DNA of 64,000 nt. Origin: Trebonia kvetii. GTDB taxonomy: Bacteria > Actinomycetota > Actinomycetes > Streptosporangiales > Streptosporangiaceae. Where the stretch lies: NCBI RefSeq assembly GCF_007827045.1, contig NZ_RPFW01000003.1:372001-436000 (forward strand), written 5' to 3'. The notes below the pieces were generated by a model, which was given only the letters and a program-made list of their open reading frames with translations, searched no databases and was not told the DNA's origin. Positions within the stretch are counted from its first letter, which is position 1. Every line of letters starts with the position of its first letter. A program made the translations under genes and the position numbers. This document shows positions 12,608 through 43,584 of the stretch, piece after piece.

Positions 12608-14113
12608 TTACAGCCCCTGCGCCAGCCGGTAGTACGCCTGGTTCCAGCGCATTTCCTTGGTGAACTGGCTTGTTGTGGTGTCCGCGTCGATGACCAGCAG
12701 CTCCACGCCGAGCATCTCGGCGAGGTCTGTCAGGTGCTCCCTGGTAAGGGAGCTGGTCATCGCGGTGTGGTGCGGTCCGCCGGCGGTCAGCCAGCTTTCC
12801 GCGGAAGTGGACAGGCTTGGCTGGGGCCGCCAGACGGCGCGGGCCACCGGCAGTTTCGGTAGCGGCTCGGGGGGAGCGATCACGTCGATCTCGTTGGCGA
12901 CGAGACGGAAGCGGTCGCCGAGGTCGGCGAGGCCGACGACGGTGGCAGGGCCGGGAGCGGCGTCGAAGACGAGCCGCACCGGGTCTTCCCTGCCGCCGAT
13001 GGACAGCGGATGGATTTCACAGGAGGGGGTCTCGGCCGAGATCGACGGGCAGACCTCGAGCATGTGCGCGCCGAGGATGAGCTGGCGGTCCGGCAGCAGG
13101 TCGTAGGTGTAGTCCTCCATGAAGCTGGTGCCGCCAGGCAGGCCGGCCGAGGCCGCCTTCAGGGTGCGAACGAGCACGCTTGTCTTCCAGTCGCCCTCCC
13201 CGCCGAACCCGTATCCGTCGGCCATCAGCCGCTGGACCGCGAGGCCCGGGAGCTGGCGAAGTCCGCCAAGGTCCTCGAAGTTGGTGGTGAAGGCGCCGAA
13301 CTCGCCGCTGCCGAGGAACTCGCGCAGCGCGATCTCCTGCCTGGCCGCGTAGCGCAGCGATTCATGCCGGTCGCCGCCCGGGCGAAGCTCGGGCGCGAGC
13401 ACGTAGGCATCCTCGTATTCGGCGACCAGCTTGCTGACCTGGCTGTCCTCGACCTGATCGACCACGGCAACCAGGTCGTTGACCCCGTAGGTGTTGACCG
13501 AAACACCGAAGGTGAGCTGGGCGGCCACCTTGTCGCCTTCGGTCACCGCCACGTCGCGCATGTTGTCGCCGAAGCGGGCGAGCCGCAGCGAGCGGATCTC
13601 CGCGCAGCCGATCGCCGCCCGGGTCCAGGCCGCGATCCGGCCGGTCACCCGGGGATCGGAGACGTGTCCGGCGACCGTCTTGCGCGGGACGCCGAGCCGG
13701 GTCTGGATGTACCCGAACTCGCGGTCACCGTGCGCCGCCTGGTTCAGGTTCATGAAGTCCATGTCGATGGTGGACCACGGCAGCGCCACGTTCGCCTGCG
13801 TGTGCAGGTGGAGCAGCGGCTTGCCGAGCGCGTCAAGGCCGGCGATCCACATCTTCGCCGGCGAGAAGGTGTGCATCCACACGATGAGCCCGATGCAGGA
13901 GTCGTCGGCGGTGGCGTCCAGGCACAGTCGCCTGATCGCCGCCGCGTCCTTGAGCACCGGCTTCCACTGCACCTTGACCGCAATGCCCGGGGCCGCGGCG
14001 AGGGCGGCCGCGATGGCCTGGGACTGCTCGGCCACCTGGCGCAGGGTCTCCTCGCCGTAGAGATTCTGGCTGCCGGTGACGAACCAGACCTCGCGGGCGG
14101 TAGGGGTGCTCAT
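12608..14113 (-). CDS. araA: L-arabinose isomerase
   Basis: A 501-residue AraA, full family length (E. coli 500). Motifs include [19 protein letters not shown] at the start, [57 protein letters not shown] and [12 protein letters not shown]. The GGEGDW and EDYTYD segments carry the acidic metal-site residues. It converts L-arabinose to L-ribulose in the cytoplasm. A 167-base gap downstream separates it from the binding-protein gene, so an internal promoter there is possible. Confidence 0.97.
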
Positions 14114-14151
14114 GGTGCGGTGTGCTCCTTTAGCTAAGGGTCTTCTCGGGG

Positions 14152-14820
14152 TCAGCGTTGGCCGTAGACGTTCTGGTAGCGGTCATACAAGCGGTCGACG
14201 TCGGCCGGCGCTATCGGCAGCGGCTCCCCGAGTTGCCGTGAGATGTGCACGCTGCGGGCGACGTCCTCGCACATGACTGCCGCCTTGACCGCCGCGCGCG
14301 CGTCGTTGCCGATCGTGAACACGCCGTGGTTGCGCATCAGGACGGCCGGCGAGCGGTGGCCGGCCAGGGTCTCGACGATGCCCTGGCCGATGGAGTCGTC
14401 GCCGATCAGCGCGAACGGCCCGATGGGGATGTCGGCGCCGAACTCGTCGGCCATCGCGGTGAGCACGCACGGCACCGGCTCGCCGCGCGCCGCCCACGCG
14501 CACGCGTAGGTGGAGTGCGTGTGCGCCACGCCGCCGACGTGCGGCATGTGCCGGTACACGTAGGCGTGGGCGGCGGTGTCGCTCGACGGGGACAGGTCCC
14601 CCTCGACCACGGTGCCGTCCAGGTCGCAGACGATCATGGACTCCGGCGTCAGCTCGTCGTAGGAGACGCCGCTCGGCTTGATCACCATCAGCTCATGGCC
14701 GGGTACGCGGCCCGAGACATTGCCCGCCGTCCACACGACGAGCCCGTACCTGACAAGTTCCGCGTGGAGGGCGCTCACCTGTTCGCGCAGCGCCTGGATC
14801 TCCTTGGTGAGTTCGCTCAT
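14152..14820 (-). CDS. araD: L-ribulose-5-phosphate 4-epimerase
   Basis: A 222-residue class II aldolase-fold epimerase. It shows [33 protein letters not shown], the zinc motif [12 protein letters not shown] and the third histidine in RNHGVFTIG. It links ribulose-5-phosphate to xylulose-5-phosphate and the pentose phosphate pathway. ATG 14820 overlaps the araB stop as ATGA. Residue Tyr near the C-terminus ([11 protein letters not shown]) fits the catalytic Tyr region of AraD. Confidence 0.95.
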
Positions 14821-16505
14821 GCGGTGGTCGCTCCGTTCCTGCGCGCGCGAAGCCGGTGCAGCACGTCGTTGCCTGCCCATTCCGGCCGGCCGGAGAAGTA
14901 GTCGTGCAGCGTCCGGTACTCGGCGAAGAGTTCGTCGTAGGCGTCCGCCCGGGCTGGGTCGGGCACGTAGGCGGCGTGCTCGCACTGCCCCATCGCCGCG
15001 GCGGCGGCGGTCACGTCGGCGTGCAGCCCGGCGGCGACCGCGGCGTGCAGCGCGGACCCGACCGCGGGCGCCTGGTCAGAGCCGGCGACCGAGACCGGGC
15101 GGCGCAGCACGTCGGCGTAGATCTGCATCAGCAGCCGGTTGCGCTTGAGGCCGCCGGCCACGATGAACTCGGTGACGGGGACGCCTGCGGCGTCGAAGGC
15201 TTCCACGATGACCCTGGTGCCGTAGGCCGTGGCCTCGAGCAGGGCGAGGTAGACGTCCTCCGGCGTGCTTGCCAGGGTCAGGCCGGCGATGACGCCCGAC
15301 AGATGGTGGTCGACGAGGATGGACCGGTTGCCGCCCATCCAGTCGAGCGCAATCAGCCCGTGCGCGCCAACCGGCCGTCCCTCGACCCGGCTCGACAGGT
15401 ACTCGTGCAGGCTCTGGCCGCGCACCGCGGCCTCGGCGAGGTAGTCCTCGGGGACGCCGAGGCCGGTCCACCAGGCGAAGATGTCGCCGACCGCGCTCTG
15501 CCCCGCCTCGTAGCCGTACTTGCCCGCGATGATCCCGCCGTCCACCACGCCGCAGATGCCAGGCACGTCGGCGAGCAGGTCGCCGTTCATCACGTGGCAG
15601 GTGGATGTGCCCATGATGGCGAGCATCTGGCCGGGCGCGATCGCCTGCGCGGCGGGCGCCGTGACGTGCGCATCGACGTTGCCGATGGCGACGGCGATGC
15701 CCTCGGGCAGCCCGGTGAGCCTGGCGCCCTCGGCAGTCAGCGACCCGGCCCTGCTGCCGAGCGCGGAAAGCGGCACGCCGGCGAGCCGGGTCTGCGCGAA
15801 GTCGGCGAAGTCGGGGTTGAGCACCTTCAAGTAGTCCGCGGACGGGTAGTGGCCGTCCTGGTAGATCCCCTTGTAGCCGGCGGTGCAGGTGTTGCGCGTT
15901 TCCTTGCCGCACAGCTGCCAGATGATCCAGTCGGCCGCCTCGATCCACCGTTCGGTGCGCCGGTAGGTGTCCGGGTCCTCCTCGAGCAGCTGCAGCGCCT
16001 TGGCGAACTGCCACTCCGAGGAGATGCGCCCGCCGTACCTGCCGATCCAGTCCTCGTGGCGCGTGTGGGCGAGGTCGTTGATCCGGTCCGCCTGCGGCTG
16101 AGCGGCGTGGTGTTTCCACAGCTTCGGCCAGGCGTGCGGGCGGTCGCGCAGTTCGGGGATCTCGCAAAGCGGCGTGCCGTCGCGCAGCACTGGCAGCACG
16201 GTGCAAGCCGTGAAGTCGGTGCCGATGCCGGCTACGTCGGCGGGGTCGACGCCGGCGTCGCGCATCGCCTCCCTGACCGCGGTGCCAAGCGCGGAGCGCC
16301 AGTCCGCCGGGTCCTGCAGCGCCCAGTCCGGTGGCAGGGGGCGTCTGGTGGACGGCAGCGCGCGCTCGATCGAGCCGTGTACGTACTCGCCGACCCCGGT
16401 GCCCAGCTCGGCGCCGTCGCTGGCCCGCACCACCACGGCTCGCGCCGAGAGGGTGCCGAAGTCCACGCCGACTACCAGCTGGCCCGCGGTGCTGTCCGCT
16501 GTCAC
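14817..16505 (-). CDS. araB: Ribulokinase
   Basis: A 562-residue FGGY-family kinase. The N-terminal phosphate loop reads VGVDFGTLSARAVVV, the substrate region includes GIGTDFTACTVLP, ATP-side motifs are IMGTSTCHVMN and FIVAGGLKRNRLLMQIYADV, and ALDWMGGNRSILVD is typical of AraB. It phosphorylates L-ribulose. It is the first gene of the leftward operon, about 106 bases downstream of the LacI-type operator at 16611-16628. Confidence 0.96.
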   Translation of the reverse strand: MTADSTAGQLVVGVDFGTLSARAVVVRASDGAELGTGVGEYVHGSIERALPSTRRPLPPDWALQDPADWRSALGTAVREAMRDAGVDPADVAGIGTDFTACTVLPVLRDGTPLCEIPELRDRPHAWPKLWKHHAAQPQADRINDLAHTRHEDWIGRYGGRISSEWQFAKALQLLEEDPDTYRRTERWIEAADWIIWQLCGKETRNTCTAGYKGIYQDGHYPSADYLKVLNPDFADFAQTRLAGVPLSALGSRAGSLTAEGARLTGLPEGIAVAIGNVDAHVTAPAAQAIAPGQMLAIMGTSTCHVMNGDLLADVPGICGVVDGGIIAGKYGYEAGQSAVGDIFAWWTGLGVPEDYLAEAAVRGQSLHEYLSSRVEGRPVGAHGLIALDWMGGNRSILVDHHLSGVIAGLTLASTPEDVYLALLEATAYGTRVIVEAFDAAGVPVTEFIVAGGLKRNRLLMQIYADVLRRPVSVAGSDQAPAVGSALHAAVAAGLHADVTAAAAAMGQCEHAAYVPDPARADAYDELFAEYRTLHDYFSGRPEWAGNDVLHRLRARRNGATTA

Positions 16506-39038: not shown

Positions 39039-39187
39039 CACTTAGCGCGCGCGGAGGCACGCGCTCCCGCATAGAGCACAGGAAGCCGCTCGTTTTACAG
39101 CCGGGGTGGGGTCGGGCCTGTAACGATTCCTTCATCCACGGCGGGTAGCTTCACTGCGGGATTGAGCTACGCGGGAGGTAAGCCGAC

Positions 39188-41083
39188 ATGTCGAGAAGGG
39201 TGCCCAGCAGCGGGCATCACCCCGAATGGCCAGGCGATCCAGAACGCGGCCAGGAATACAGCGACGGCTACGGCTACGGCGGCAGCCCGGGCGGCGGTTA
39301 CGACCAGGGGCAGTACGGCCAGAATCAGTACGGTCACGGACAGAACGGCCAGAACGGCCAGAACGCGGCCCCCAACGGTCACCAGGGTTACGCCAGCCAG
39401 TACGGGCAGGACCGGTACGGGCAGGACCAGTACGGGCAGGACCAGTACGGGCAGGACCAGTACGGTCAGGCCGCCGGGTACGGCCAGCAGCAGCCACAGG
39501 GCGCCCAGGACTGGGGATACGACGGCCAGCCCACCCAGTCGATGGGCTACCAGGGCAACGGCTACCAGGCCAGCGGTTACCCGGGCCACGCGTACCCGGA
39601 GAACAATGGGTGGCAGGACGGGCGCCCGCAGGGAAACATGCGCCGGTATGAGGACTCACAGGGGTACGCGGACACCCAGCGCTTCGACGGCACGCAGCGC
39701 TTCGACGACACACAGCGGCTTAACGACTCGCAGCCCTTTGACGACCCGCGGCGTCTCAATGGCATGCAGCGTATCGACGACCCGCAGCGCTTCGATGACC
39801 GGCAGGGATACGCGCGGCCCGGGCAGAACGGCGTTCCGGGACGACCCGGCCAGGGCCGCCCTGGCCAGGGACGCCCCGGCCAGTCGCCCGGGGCCCGTCC
39901 AGGGCGGGATCTGCCGCCCGGGCGCAAGGTACGCTTCCGGCGCACGCGCAGGTTCTTCCGCCGTCGCGTCGTCCGCGTGATCAGCGCGGTGCTCGCGCTC
40001 TTCCTTGCCCTGGTCATGTTCTCCGCGGGGCAGGCGGCGTTCAAGAACAACGGCCAGGGCCTGACGGCAAACCTCGCCGAGTGGGCGCGCGACCATTACC
40101 TCGGCCCGGTGGTGACGTTCGGCGAGTGGCTGTCCTACAACCCGCCGCCCAAGGGCGGCAAGCCGTCGTTCTCGCTCGCCGTGCCGAGCGGCGAGGCGGT
40201 CACCTCGGCCAAGCCGCAAAAGGGCGGTAAGACCAAGGGCAAGACGTTCGTGCCGGACATCCCCGCCACGCTGAAGTCGCTCGCGCCGTCGCCGATCGCC
40301 GGCGAGGGCCAGTGGCGGCTGGCGGAGAAGGTGAAGGGCTACCCCGCCATCCTGACCACGTTCCTCCGCGATGCCACTTATACCTCCCAGGTCAACGGCG
40401 TGGCGTCGATCGATCAGCGGCTGGTCAAGTTCCAGCTGCGCCCGGGTACCGAGGATCCCGGGTCGAGCCCCTGGGGCTACAGCGACACCTACATCCCCGC
40501 GGGCAAGCGCACGGGCCTGCTCGCGACGTTCAACGGCGGGTTCAAGCTCGACTCCGCGGGCGGCGGTTTCTACCTGAACGGCTCGTACCACGGCTCGCTT
40601 GTGACGGGCGCCGCGTCGGTCGTCTACTACAAGAACGGCACCATCAAGATCGGCAAGTGGAGTCGCGACTTCTCGATGACCTCTAAGATCGCGGGCGTGC
40701 GGCAGAACCTCAAGCTGATCATCGACCACGGCAAGATCTCGCCGAACCTCAACCAGGACATCATGACCAAGTTCGGCGCCACGCTCGGCGGCGGGTATTA
40801 CGTGTGGCGGTCCGGTCTCGGCATCACCAAGGACGGCCGGATCGTCTACGTGTACGGCCCCGCGCTGAACGTGCAGGATCTGGCCGAGCTGCTGCACCGG
40901 GCAGGCGCGGTCGAGGGCCTGCAGATGGACATCAACCCCGCCTGGATGAAGTTCGACACCTACCAGGCGAAGGGCAACCCCGCCAACCCGACCCCGGTGA
41001 CGCTGCTGCCGACGCAGCAGCCGAGCGCCTACTCGTACTACACCGCCTCCACCCGTGACTTCACGGCGGTTTTCGCACGGTGA
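39188..41083 (+). CDS. Membrane-anchored phosphodiester glycosidase with QYG-rich tail
   Basis: A 631-residue protein in three parts. Residues 1-240 are low-complexity, rich in Gln, Tyr, Gly and Asp, with repeated GQDQYGQDQYG and later (Q)RFDD/T units. A membrane helix follows near residues 262-280 (VISAVLALFLALVMFSAG) after an Arg-rich stop (FRRTRRFFRRRVVR). The outer domain is a NAGPA-type phosphodiester glycosidase: LLATFNGGFKLDSAGGGFY, GYYVWRSGLGITKDGRIVYV and LQMDINPAWMKF. Its stop overlaps the UbiA start as GTGA, tying it to arabinose-lipid synthesis. The natural substrate is unknown; a glycosyl-phosphate linkage in the envelope is plausible. Confidence 0.86.
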   Translation: MSRRVPSSGHHPEWPGDPERGQEYSDGYGYGGSPGGGYDQGQYGQNQYGHGQNGQNGQNAAPNGHQGYASQYGQDRYGQDQYGQDQYGQDQYGQAAGYGQQQPQGAQDWGYDGQPTQSMGYQGNGYQASGYPGHAYPENNGWQDGRPQGNMRRYEDSQGYADTQRFDGTQRFDDTQRLNDSQPFDDPRRLNGMQRIDDPQRFDDRQGYARPGQNGVPGRPGQGRPGQGRPGQSPGARPGRDLPPGRKVRFRRTRRFFRRRVVRVISAVLALFLALVMFSAGQAAFKNNGQGLTANLAEWARDHYLGPVVTFGEWLSYNPPPKGGKPSFSLAVPSGEAVTSAKPQKGGKTKGKTFVPDIPATLKSLAPSPIAGEGQWRLAEKVKGYPAILTTFLRDATYTSQVNGVASIDQRLVKFQLRPGTEDPGSSPWGYSDTYIPAGKRTGLLATFNGGFKLDSAGGGFYLNGSYHGSLVTGAASVVYYKNGTIKIGKWSRDFSMTSKIAGVRQNLKLIIDHGKISPNLNQDIMTKFGATLGGGYYVWRSGLGITKDGRIVYVYGPALNVQDLAELLHRAGAVEGLQMDINPAWMKFDTYQAKGNPANPTPVTLLPTQQPSAYSYYTASTRDFTAVFAR

Positions 41084-42036
41084 CCAACAACACGCTGACC
41101 TCTGGCGAGGACACGGAGGGCCCGCAGGCGCCCGTGCCCGCCGTCGCTGTCGCCGGACTCTCGCCTGCCCGCTGGGTGCGCGCCGCCGTCCGGACCACGC
41201 GGCCACGGCAGTGGCCGAAGAACCTGCTGGTGTTTGCGGCGCCGCTGGCGGCCGCGAACCTCGGACGCAACAACGGCTTCGGCTACGCGCTGCTCGCCAT
41301 GTTCGCCTTCGGCTGCGCCTCGGCGGCGGTCTACTTCGTCAACGATGTCGCCGACGTGGAGCGCGACAGGCGCCATCCGGTGAAGCGGAACCGGCCGATC
41401 GCCTCGGGCGCGCTGCCCGAGCAGCACGCGATGGTGCTCGCCGTGCTGGCCGCGGTGTTCGCGGTCGGCGCGGGTGTGGTCATCAGGGAGCCGCTGCTCG
41501 TTGTCACGGTCTCGGCGTACCTGTGCCTGTCGTTCCTGTACTCGTTCAAGCTCAAGCACATTCCGTTCGTCGAGATGCTGATCGTGGCGTCCGGGTTCCT
41601 GCTGCGGGTGCTCGGCGGCGCGGCCGCCACCCACGTGGTGCTGTCCATCTGGTTCCTGCTCGTGTGCAGCCTCGGCGCGCTCGGCGTGGCCGTGGCCAAG
41701 CGGTACACCGAGCTGACCAGCCTTGGCGACGAGGCCGTCAAGCACCGGCCGGTGATGCGCAATTACCGCCCGGACATCCTGCGGATCGCGCAGGTGCTCA
41801 TCGGTGTCGGCATGCTCGCCACCTACCTGATGTGGGCGCTGAGCGGAAAGCACGGCGCCCGGCCCTGGCAGGTGGCGTCCGTGCTGCCGCTTGCCGCCGC
41901 GGTCGTCAGGTTCGGCGTCCTCACCGCGCGCCGGACCGTCCGCCCGGTGGAAGACCTGATCACCAGGGACGCGGTCATGCTGTGCTGCGAGGTCGCATGG
42001 CTGATCCTGTTCTGCGTCGGCCTGTACGTGGCCTAG
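41080..42036 (+). CDS. Decaprenyl-phosphate phosphoribosyltransferase (UbiA, DPPR synthase-like)
   Basis: A 318-residue UbiA-superfamily membrane enzyme with about eight or nine helices. The first catalytic motif NDVADVERDRRHPVKRNRP is that of DPPR synthases (Rv3806c type); other family features are RTTRPRQWPKNLLVFAAPLA and AKRYTELTSLGDEAVKHRP. It moves phosphoribose from PRPP to decaprenyl phosphate, the first committed step to the arabinan donor DPA. It overlaps the glycosidase gene and precedes a DprE2-like reductase by 12 bases. Confidence 0.93.
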   Translation: MTNNTLTSGEDTEGPQAPVPAVAVAGLSPARWVRAAVRTTRPRQWPKNLLVFAAPLAAANLGRNNGFGYALLAMFAFGCASAAVYFVNDVADVERDRRHPVKRNRPIASGALPEQHAMVLAVLAAVFAVGAGVVIREPLLVVTVSAYLCLSFLYSFKLKHIPFVEMLIVASGFLLRVLGGAAATHVVLSIWFLLVCSLGALGVAVAKRYTELTSLGDEAVKHRPVMRNYRPDILRIAQVLIGVGMLATYLMWALSGKHGARPWQVASVLPLAAAVVRFGVLTARRTVRPVEDLITRDAVMLCCEVAWLILFCVGLYVA

Positions 42037-42048
42037 GAGAAGTCAGAC

Positions 42049-42786
42049 ATGAGAGTTGTTCTGCTCGGCGGTACCAGCGAGATCGGCCTTGCGATCCTGT
42101 CCGCGCTGCGGCTGGGGGCCGACGCCGAGGTGATCCTGGCCGGCCGCGATCCGCAGCGGCTCGAGGGCGCGGGAAAGTCGCTGAACCGCCCGGTCACGGT
42201 GGTCAGGTACGACGCCGTGGACACGGACGCGCACCAGGCGTTCGTCGATGAGATCTGCGCCGGCGGAGTGCCGGACCTGATCATCGCCGCGACCGGCATC
42301 CTGATCCCGCAGGAGCGGGCCGAGCAGGACGTGCGGCTCGCGGCCACCATGATCGAGACCAACTTCACCGGGCATGTCACCGCGCTGCTCGCGTTCGGCG
42401 AGGCGATGCGCCGCCGTGGCAGCGGCACCATCGTCGTCCTGTCGTCGATCGCCGCGGTGCGGCCGCGCAAGTTCAACTCGGTCTACGGTGCGACCAAGGC
42501 CGCCCTCGACGCGTTCGCACGCGGTTACGCCGACTCCCTGCATGGCACCGGGGTCCGGGTGCTGCTGGTCAGGCCTGGGTTCGTGAAGGGCCGGATGACC
42601 GAGGGGATGCAGGCGGCGCCGCTCGCGACCACGCCGGAGAAGGTTGGCGCGGCGGTGGCGGGCGCGCTGCGCGGCCAGGGCCGCGGCGACGGCAAGTCGG
42701 TGATCTGGGTGCCGTCTTCGCTTGTCGGCCTCGCCACGGTGATGAAGCTGATCCCGCGCCCGGTCTGGCGGACCCTTAAGAACTAG
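42049..42786 (+). CDS. dprE2: DprE2-like decaprenylphosphoryl ketoribose reductase
   Basis: A 245-residue short-chain dehydrogenase. It starts VVLLGGTSEIGLAILSAL, has the catalytic Ser in VVLSSIAAVRPRK and YGATKAALDAFARGYADSL with Tyr and Lys, then VRVLLVRPGFVKGRMTEGM; the overall pattern follows mycobacterial DprE2 (Rv3791). With DPPR synthase directly upstream, the assignment is strong. The oxidase partner DprE1 and a phosphatase are not in the window. ATG 42049 follows AGGAGAAGTCAGAC. Confidence 0.9.
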   Translation: MRVVLLGGTSEIGLAILSALRLGADAEVILAGRDPQRLEGAGKSLNRPVTVVRYDAVDTDAHQAFVDEICAGGVPDLIIAATGILIPQERAEQDVRLAATMIETNFTGHVTALLAFGEAMRRRGSGTIVVLSSIAAVRPRKFNSVYGATKAALDAFARGYADSLHGTGVRVLLVRPGFVKGRMTEGMQAAPLATTPEKVGAAVAGALRGQGRGDGKSVIWVPSSLVGLATVMKLIPRPVWRTLKN

Positions 42787-42915: not shown

Positions 42916-43584
42916 ATGCGAGTGCTGGTTGCGACAGCTGACGACACCCTCGGCTGCCTGGTCGCCGAGCGGCTGACCAGCGGCGGGTATGTGACCGACC
43001 TCGTCGCGGACGGCCGGCGGGCGCTGAGCTACGGCCGCTGCTACGACTACGCGGCCGCGGTGCTCGACTGGCTGCTGCCGACGGTGTCAGGCATCGACGT
43101 GGTCCGGCTGCTGCGCCGCCGTGGCGTGTCCGCCCCGGTGCTGATGATCAGCGGCAAGGACACGCCGGAGGACCGGGTGGCCGGGCTCGACGCGGGTGCG
43201 GACGACTTCCTCGTCGTGCCGTTCGATATTCAGGAACTGCTCGCGCGGCTGCGCGCGCTGCAGCGCCGTCCGGCGCAGCTGCTCCCGGCTCGCCTGGTGG
43301 TCGGCGATCTGGAGTGCGACCCGGCCTCCCGCCAGGTCAGCTTCGGCGGCTGCCGTCCGTCGCTGACGTCGACCGAGCTTGGCATCCTCGAGACGCTGAT
43401 GCGCTTTTCCCCGGCGGTCGCGGACCGCCGGCAGATCGCGCAGCACGTCTGGGTCAACGACACGGAGCCGTTCGGGTCCAACACCATCGACGTGCACCTG
43501 GCGCGGCTGCGCGCGAAGCTGTCCGGCTCGCGGGTCCGCATCGAGACCATCCGGGGCGTCGGCTATCGCATCGTGGCGGTGTGA
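42916..43584 (+). CDS. Orphan OmpR-type response regulator, atypical receiver
   Basis: A 222-residue regulator: receiver domain 1-115 and OmpR winged helix 130-222 (LTSTELGILETLMRF, NTIDVHLARLRAKLSG, ETIRGVGYRIVAV). The acidic pair (Asp9-Asp10), phospho-acceptor (Asp51 in VLDWLLP) and Ser79 are kept. The invariant Lys of the KPF motif is replaced: DDFLVVPF puts Val at residue 101. No histidine kinase is adjacent. Signalling may therefore be non-canonical. ATG 42916 is the evident start. Confidence 0.9.
   Translation: MRVLVATADDTLGCLVAERLTSGGYVTDLVADGRRALSYGRCYDYAAAVLDWLLPTVSGIDVVRLLRRRGVSAPVLMISGKDTPEDRVAGLDAGADDFLVVPFDIQELLARLRALQRRPAQLLPARLVVGDLECDPASRQVSFGGCRPSLTSTELGILETLMRFSPAVADRRQIAQHVWVNDTEPFGSNTIDVHLARLRAKLSGSRVRIETIRGVGYRIVAV

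Follow-up and report, generated by a model that had tools for sequence, protein, structure and literature searches.

Enzymes of the NAGPA fold cleave sugar-1-phosphodiesters, and the canonical members carry an Asp-Gly-Gly motif. The decaprenyl-phospho-arabinose pathway of mycobacteria and corynebacteria comprises UbiA, DprE1, DprE2 and the Emb/Aft transferases. In three-component pentofuranose systems with GT136, a polyprenyl-phosphoribose synthase is combined with a GT-C last step and a co-encoded MATE flippase (Kelly et al. 2024, PMC11127046). We examined a stretch of 64,000 nucleotides from Trebonia kvetii (the window), in which the gene for a membrane-anchored protein of the NAGPA fold stands in an operon with homologues of UbiA and DprE2. 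The window belongs to contig C32 of the home genome, an assembly of 9.25 Mb in 93 contigs that is 97% complete with 8% contamination. No literature linking NAGPA to the DprE pathway was found in searches of the non-subscription literature.

The module is widespread across many actinobacterial families, and its predicted lipid arabinose carrier is the one used in the tuberculosis cell wall. We give slightly less than an even chance to the proposal that the operon serves a lipid-linked pentofuranose pathway in which the ectoenzyme acts on polyprenyl-phosphate-pentofuranose, probably as a transferase and perhaps as a hydrolase.

Gene organization of the operon

Positions 39188-42786 hold three separate, co-directional open reading frames:

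39188 to 41083, plus strand: NAGPA-fold (phosphodiester glycosidase-like) membrane-anchored ectoenzyme of 631 amino acids (open reading frame, ribosome-binding site, sub-threshold PF09992 match, AlphaFold2 model, fold matches in the PDB)
41080 to 42036, plus strand: UbiA-family decaprenyl-phosphate phosphoribosyltransferase (DPPR synthase-like) of 318 amino acids (NF008978, PF01040, Asp-rich motif)
42049 to 42786, plus strand: DprE2-like short-chain reductase of 245 amino acids (NF053786 as best model)

A Shine-Dalgarno sequence, GGGAGG, lies at 39173-39178 upstream of the NAGPA-like gene, and AGGAG precedes the DprE2-like gene. The UbiA gene begins with a GTG inside the stop of the NAGPA-like gene, a four-base GTGA overlap. 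The original prediction spoke of a glycosidase fused into the operon. Three distinct reading frames rule out a gene fusion; what was confirmed is a glycosidase-like gene overlapping a DPPR synthase-like gene that is followed by a DprE2-like gene.

The UbiA-family protein passed the NCBIfam equivalog model for decaprenyl-phosphate phosphoribosyltransferase (NF008978; 254.8 bits, cut-off 207), matched PF01040 and contains the Asp-rich motif NDVADVERD. The best model for the reductase was the DprE2 equivalog NF053786, at 229.2 bits against a cut-off of 250, which DprE2 homologues of the same module exceed elsewhere (259.9 in locus L101 and 323.6 in L119).

The home genome also encodes DprE1, which the original prediction had proposed to locate. 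The gene lies outside the window at C32:830036-831466 and its product passed the NCBIfam equivalog NF053785 (571.9, cut-off 500). It stands back to back with the gene for a NAGPA paralogue that resembles a lipoprotein and shares 33% identity with the window protein (L055:7846-10470; C32 at about 828.8-831.5 kb), and a pair of the same kind was found on contig C279 of genome G074. This pair is a second link of NAGPA proteins to the DprE pathway.

Fold and predicted topology of the ectoenzyme

The window protein scored 21-22 bits against PF09992, under the Pfam gathering cut-off of 25, and we therefore tested its fold. PF09992 matches at E <= 0.01 were obtained for 83 of 89 homologues, the best at 3.1e-10. 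An AlphaFold2 model built from the alignment of the 89 sequences had a predicted local distance difference test score (pLDDT) of 92.6 and a predicted template modelling score (pTM) of 0.91. When the model was compared with the PDB by Foldseek, the top 11 matches were all DUF2233/NAGPA structures, with E-values from 3.6e-12 (3ohg) to 3.7e-9, and those next after 3ohg were vertebrate uncovering enzymes. The predicted structure thus had confident matches of the NAGPA/DUF2233 type only. The protein sequence alone matched no solved structure; profile searches gave weak matches to NAGPA and Slr0280, together with spurious ones to designed repeat proteins.

Two features of the protein were mapped:

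39968 to 40024, plus strand: single transmembrane segment, residues 261-279 (hydropathy peak 2.5; long helix at residues 263-284 in the model)
40526 to 40936, plus strand: putative active-site region, residues 447-583, with FNGGF (N449), VRQNL (R505, Q506), RSG (R541) and DIN (D581, N583) (invariance in homologues, profile alignments)

The Asn of FNGGF, the Arg of RSG and the Asp of DINP were invariant across the 89 homologues, and in profile alignments they pair with their counterparts in NAGPA or Slr0280 (6pku, 6pky, 5h3k). These are the positions conserved in the family (Asn in NGGF, Arg in RTA/RSG, and Asp). Equally invariant were subfamily-specific residues in VRQNL and DINPxW. Because an N-terminal tail precedes the hydrophobic segment, the predicted topology is a cytoplasmic tail, one helix at about residues 261-279 and a catalytic domain outside the membrane, the ectodomain taking up about residues 285-631.

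Conservation of the association

We surveyed 151 genomes of the home family and found this NAGPA in 19, all of which also carry DprE1. UbiA copies more than 50% identical to that of the window directly adjoin NAGPA, except for extra copies in genome G117, and NAGPA is missing from genomes whose sole UbiA is a distant one (about 31-44%). At several home-family loci, DprE1 lies between UbiA and DprE2 or straight after UbiA (L049 and L051; genomes G083 and G017). The NAGPA gene has its nearest named relatives in actinobacterial metagenome-assembled genomes, including a Trebonia and several Streptosporangiaceae.

A wider survey combined the 80 best loci of 84,980 scanned species, among them Streptacidiphilus, Kitasatospora, Frankiales, Propionibacteriaceae and Acidimicrobiia, with 20 loci from a sample of the phylum. 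Culturable soil actinomycetes with the module include Kitasatospora mediocidica (L107) and Streptacidiphilus jiangxiensis. NAGPA stood with UbiA, DprE1 and/or DprE2 in 67 of these 100 loci, which is not an unbiased rate, as the loci were picked for NAGPA and their species overlap. There were 18 distinct arrangements, with NAGPA upstream, downstream, divergent or convergent and DprE1 present or not. Across the 396 genomes of the phylum sample, NAGPA was present in 26, DprE1 in 63 and both in 22, where 4.1 would be expected (P about 7e-16); counted by genus, the two occurred together in 17 of 20 genera (P about 7e-13), both P-values being only partly corrected for shared ancestry. NAGPA and DprE1 lay within about 3 kb of each other in 14 of the 22 genomes, mostly 0.8-1.2 kb apart, or about one gene length. 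Some of the NAGPA carriers, in family f54, have small genomes of 1.5-2.2 Mb.

The survey of gene order that the original prediction called for found an association conserved far beyond chance and an order that itself varies. The linkage has been kept through repeated rearrangement, which is the best evidence of a functional tie. Together with the family calls, the fold and the DprE1 in the genome, it supports the predicted operon for an arabinose donor (decaprenyl-phospho-ribose and decaprenyl-phospho-arabinose, DPR/DPA) with a phosphodiester-glycosidase-like ectoenzyme. Some Streptacidiphilus carry two modules. In Streptacidiphilus jiangxiensis each UbiA is paired with its own NAGPA, with DprE1 close by at L097 and no DprE genes in the vicinity at L090, an arrangement compatible with one terminal enzyme for each donor. 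The one recurrent extra neighbour was a response regulator with a kinase, seen chiefly in the home group; other clusters tracked taxonomy.

Arabinosyltransferases and flippases

Searches of the home genome for EmbA/B/C (PF04602) and AftA (PF12250) found none, with a positive control in Corynebacterium glutamicum, and no Emb was found in the 151 home-family genomes. In the phylum sample, Emb scored above cut-off in 15 genomes, none of which has NAGPA. This mutual exclusion is only suggestive, as 14 of the 15 come from one family. Twenty-seven of the 63 DprE1 genomes, from family f3 and others, have neither Emb nor this NAGPA, so that the lipid donor probably has further users.

A large polytopic membrane protein, transporter-like by eye, is encoded within 4 kb of the module at six of the 67 linked loci, and no recognised GT-C enzyme was found among such proteins at that distance. 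Neither a GT-C transferase nor a flippase recurs beside the module at these loci, and no gene was assigned as a DPPR 5-phosphatase or as the flippase. At L111, L112 and L115 a transporter-like protein (8-9 predicted transmembrane segments, MFS-like by eye) is encoded upstream of NAGPA and DprE1 and is a candidate lipid flippase.

Proposed role of the ectoenzyme

Going by family membership, the UbiA enzyme would place ribose-5-phosphate from phosphoribosyl pyrophosphate onto polyprenyl phosphate. Once the 5-phosphate had been removed, the ribofuranose would be converted to arabinofuranose by DprE2 together with DprE1, whose gene lies elsewhere in the genome, and a flippase would then turn the lipid outward. 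Outside, the membrane-anchored NAGPA-fold domain would act directly on the polyprenyl-phosphate-pentofuranose. Most likely it would transfer the pentose to a glycan of the wall or surface and so take the place of the GT-C transferases of mycobacterial arabinan synthesis and of the three-component systems.

We infer the substrate from two considerations: polyprenyl-phospho-arabinofuranose outside the cell is a sugar-1-phosphodiester, the class of bond cleaved by the NAGPA fold, and, of the module's components outside the membrane, only the NAGPA-fold domain is conserved. Action of this domain on the lipid pentose is the most economical reading, and the link is plausible. Transfer appears somewhat likelier than hydrolysis, since without transfer the pathway would serve no useful end. 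We put forward, as a tentative suggestion with the odds against it, that single-transmembrane NAGPA-fold ectodomains form a new class of polyprenyl-phosphate-dependent pentosyltransferases, which would move arabinofuranose or ribofuranose to a surface glycan and replace GT-C enzymes. In two distant lineages, at L041 (10881-12203, minus strand) and L162, NAGPA-UbiA has an upstream gene of the LCP type (wall-polymer ligase-like), hinting that the product is wall-attached.

Several points weigh against transfer by the ectoenzyme. The known enzymes of the NAGPA fold are hydrolases, and we know of no transferase of this fold; the chemistry proposed here is read from fold and gene context. The original prediction had also suggested locating arabinosyltransferases: those of the Emb/AftA kind are absent from the home genome, but seven GT87 (GT-C) genes are present elsewhere in it, so that an unlinked GT-C enzyme could use the donor. 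At L114 a GT87 gene lies upstream of NAGPA-UbiA, the sole GT87 neighbour among the linked loci. Nor is NAGPA a general substitute, given the many DprE1 genomes that lack both NAGPA and Emb.

Two alternatives are still live, the trimming of a glycan and the recycling of the donor. In the first, arabinose is transferred by a GT-C enzyme encoded elsewhere, such as a GT87, and the finished polymer is then trimmed or released by the NAGPA domain, which cuts a sugar-1-phosphodiester or other pentose-glycan bond. We consider this unlikely, though several points favour it: the known chemistry of the fold is hydrolytic, the GT87 genes just described supply candidate transferases, the tandem or multiple NAGPA copies of several genomes suit processing enzymes, and the upstream LCP-family genes suggest a wall polymer. 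What speaks against it is that NAGPA is linked to genes of donor synthesis and not to polymerases or other hydrolases.

In the second alternative, surplus or unused polyprenyl-phospho-pentose is cleaved outside, which recycles polyprenyl phosphate and controls the level of donor. This is a direct reading of phosphodiester glycosidase chemistry and agrees with the near one-to-one pairing with a donor synthase. However, Mycobacteriaceae-type genomes have the same donor pathway without such a NAGPA, and the module would be left without a user of its product, and we regard donor recycling as improbable. It is less probable still that the domain is inactive and serves the membrane enzymes as a scaffold or anchor, or acts as a glycan-binding module. 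DINPxW in place of the canonical Asp-Gly-Gly motif does point to a modified active site, but the Asn, Arg and Asp of the superfamily do not vary in the 89 sequences, which would be unusual had activity been lost.

The low-complexity tail and neighbouring genes

The following further features were annotated in the window:

39188 to 39922, plus strand: low-complexity predicted cytoplasmic tail of the NAGPA-fold protein, residues 1-245, with QYG and QRFDD-like repeats (composition, repeat units, tandem repeats)
42916 to 43584, plus strand: OmpR-type response regulator (PF00072 and PF00486)

The tail is rich in G, Q, P, D, R and Y and contains seven QYG/RYG and seven QRFDD-like units; its DNA consists partly of 15- and 18-bp tandem repeats and is minisatellite-like. 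Among relatives, tail composition varies widely, as does length, which was taken from the longest open frame and is hence overestimated for some. Close relatives carry other low-complexity tails, and most of the remainder have short R- and P-rich ones. The tail is a variable, repeat-built extension absent from most relatives, and this variation and the minisatellite-like DNA led us to reject it as a conserved functional element. Of the 240-residue QYG/QRFDD cytoplasmic tail first described, the low complexity, the repeats and the predicted cytoplasmic location stand; a special role found no support, and nothing favoured the suggested phase separation.

A near-identical NAGPA copy with a different tail is present in the home genome at C61:646000-665000 (L034), 92% identical over the transmembrane segment and ectodomain. 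No UbiA or DprE2 gene adjoins it, and a response regulator/kinase pair follows. It is either a recent duplication or a product of strain mixture, given the contamination of the assembly.

The response regulator of the window lies 3' of DprE2. No histidine kinase gene follows it, whereas seven of the compared loci have both a regulator and a kinase downstream; it is perhaps an orphan, or its partner may be encoded at a distance. Positions 12608-16505 of the window hold L-arabinose isomerase-like and sugar kinase-like genes with sugar-transporter genes close by. These probably represent L-arabinose catabolism with no tie to the D-arabinose lipid pathway.

Comparison with known systems

The proposed pathway, if true, would imply uncharacterised pentofuranose glycans in Streptacidiphilus, Kitasatospora and uncultured actinobacteria. 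It would also offer a largely soluble enzyme for chemistry relevant to the tuberculosis drug targets DprE1 and DprE2.

With the NAGPA/DUF2233 proteins (PF09992; the vertebrate mannose-6-phosphate uncovering enzyme and BACOVA_00430, PDB 3ohg) the window protein shares the fold, the aligned Asn, Arg and Asp and an extracytoplasmic site. It differs from them in its low identity (about 15%) and sub-cut-off PF09992 score, in its DINPxW and VRQNL signatures, in its one N-terminal transmembrane segment and in its tie to a lipid-pentose pathway. Relative to the mycobacterial and corynebacterial pathway, homologues of UbiA, DprE1 and DprE2 pass or approach the equivalog models; in contrast, EmbA/B/C and AftA are absent here, an ectoenzyme of the NAGPA fold is in the operon, and the organism lies outside the mycolate group.

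The three-component systems (PMC11127046) have in common with this module a UbiA-family polyprenyl-phosphoribose synthase, optional epimerases and the addition of sugar outside the membrane, but here it is a single-transmembrane NAGPA-fold protein that recurs and not a GT-C enzyme or a MATE flippase. The module would then represent a second way of using polyprenyl-phospho-arabinose, through a small glycosidase-fold ectodomain as against the GT-C endings of the described systems (PMC11127046).

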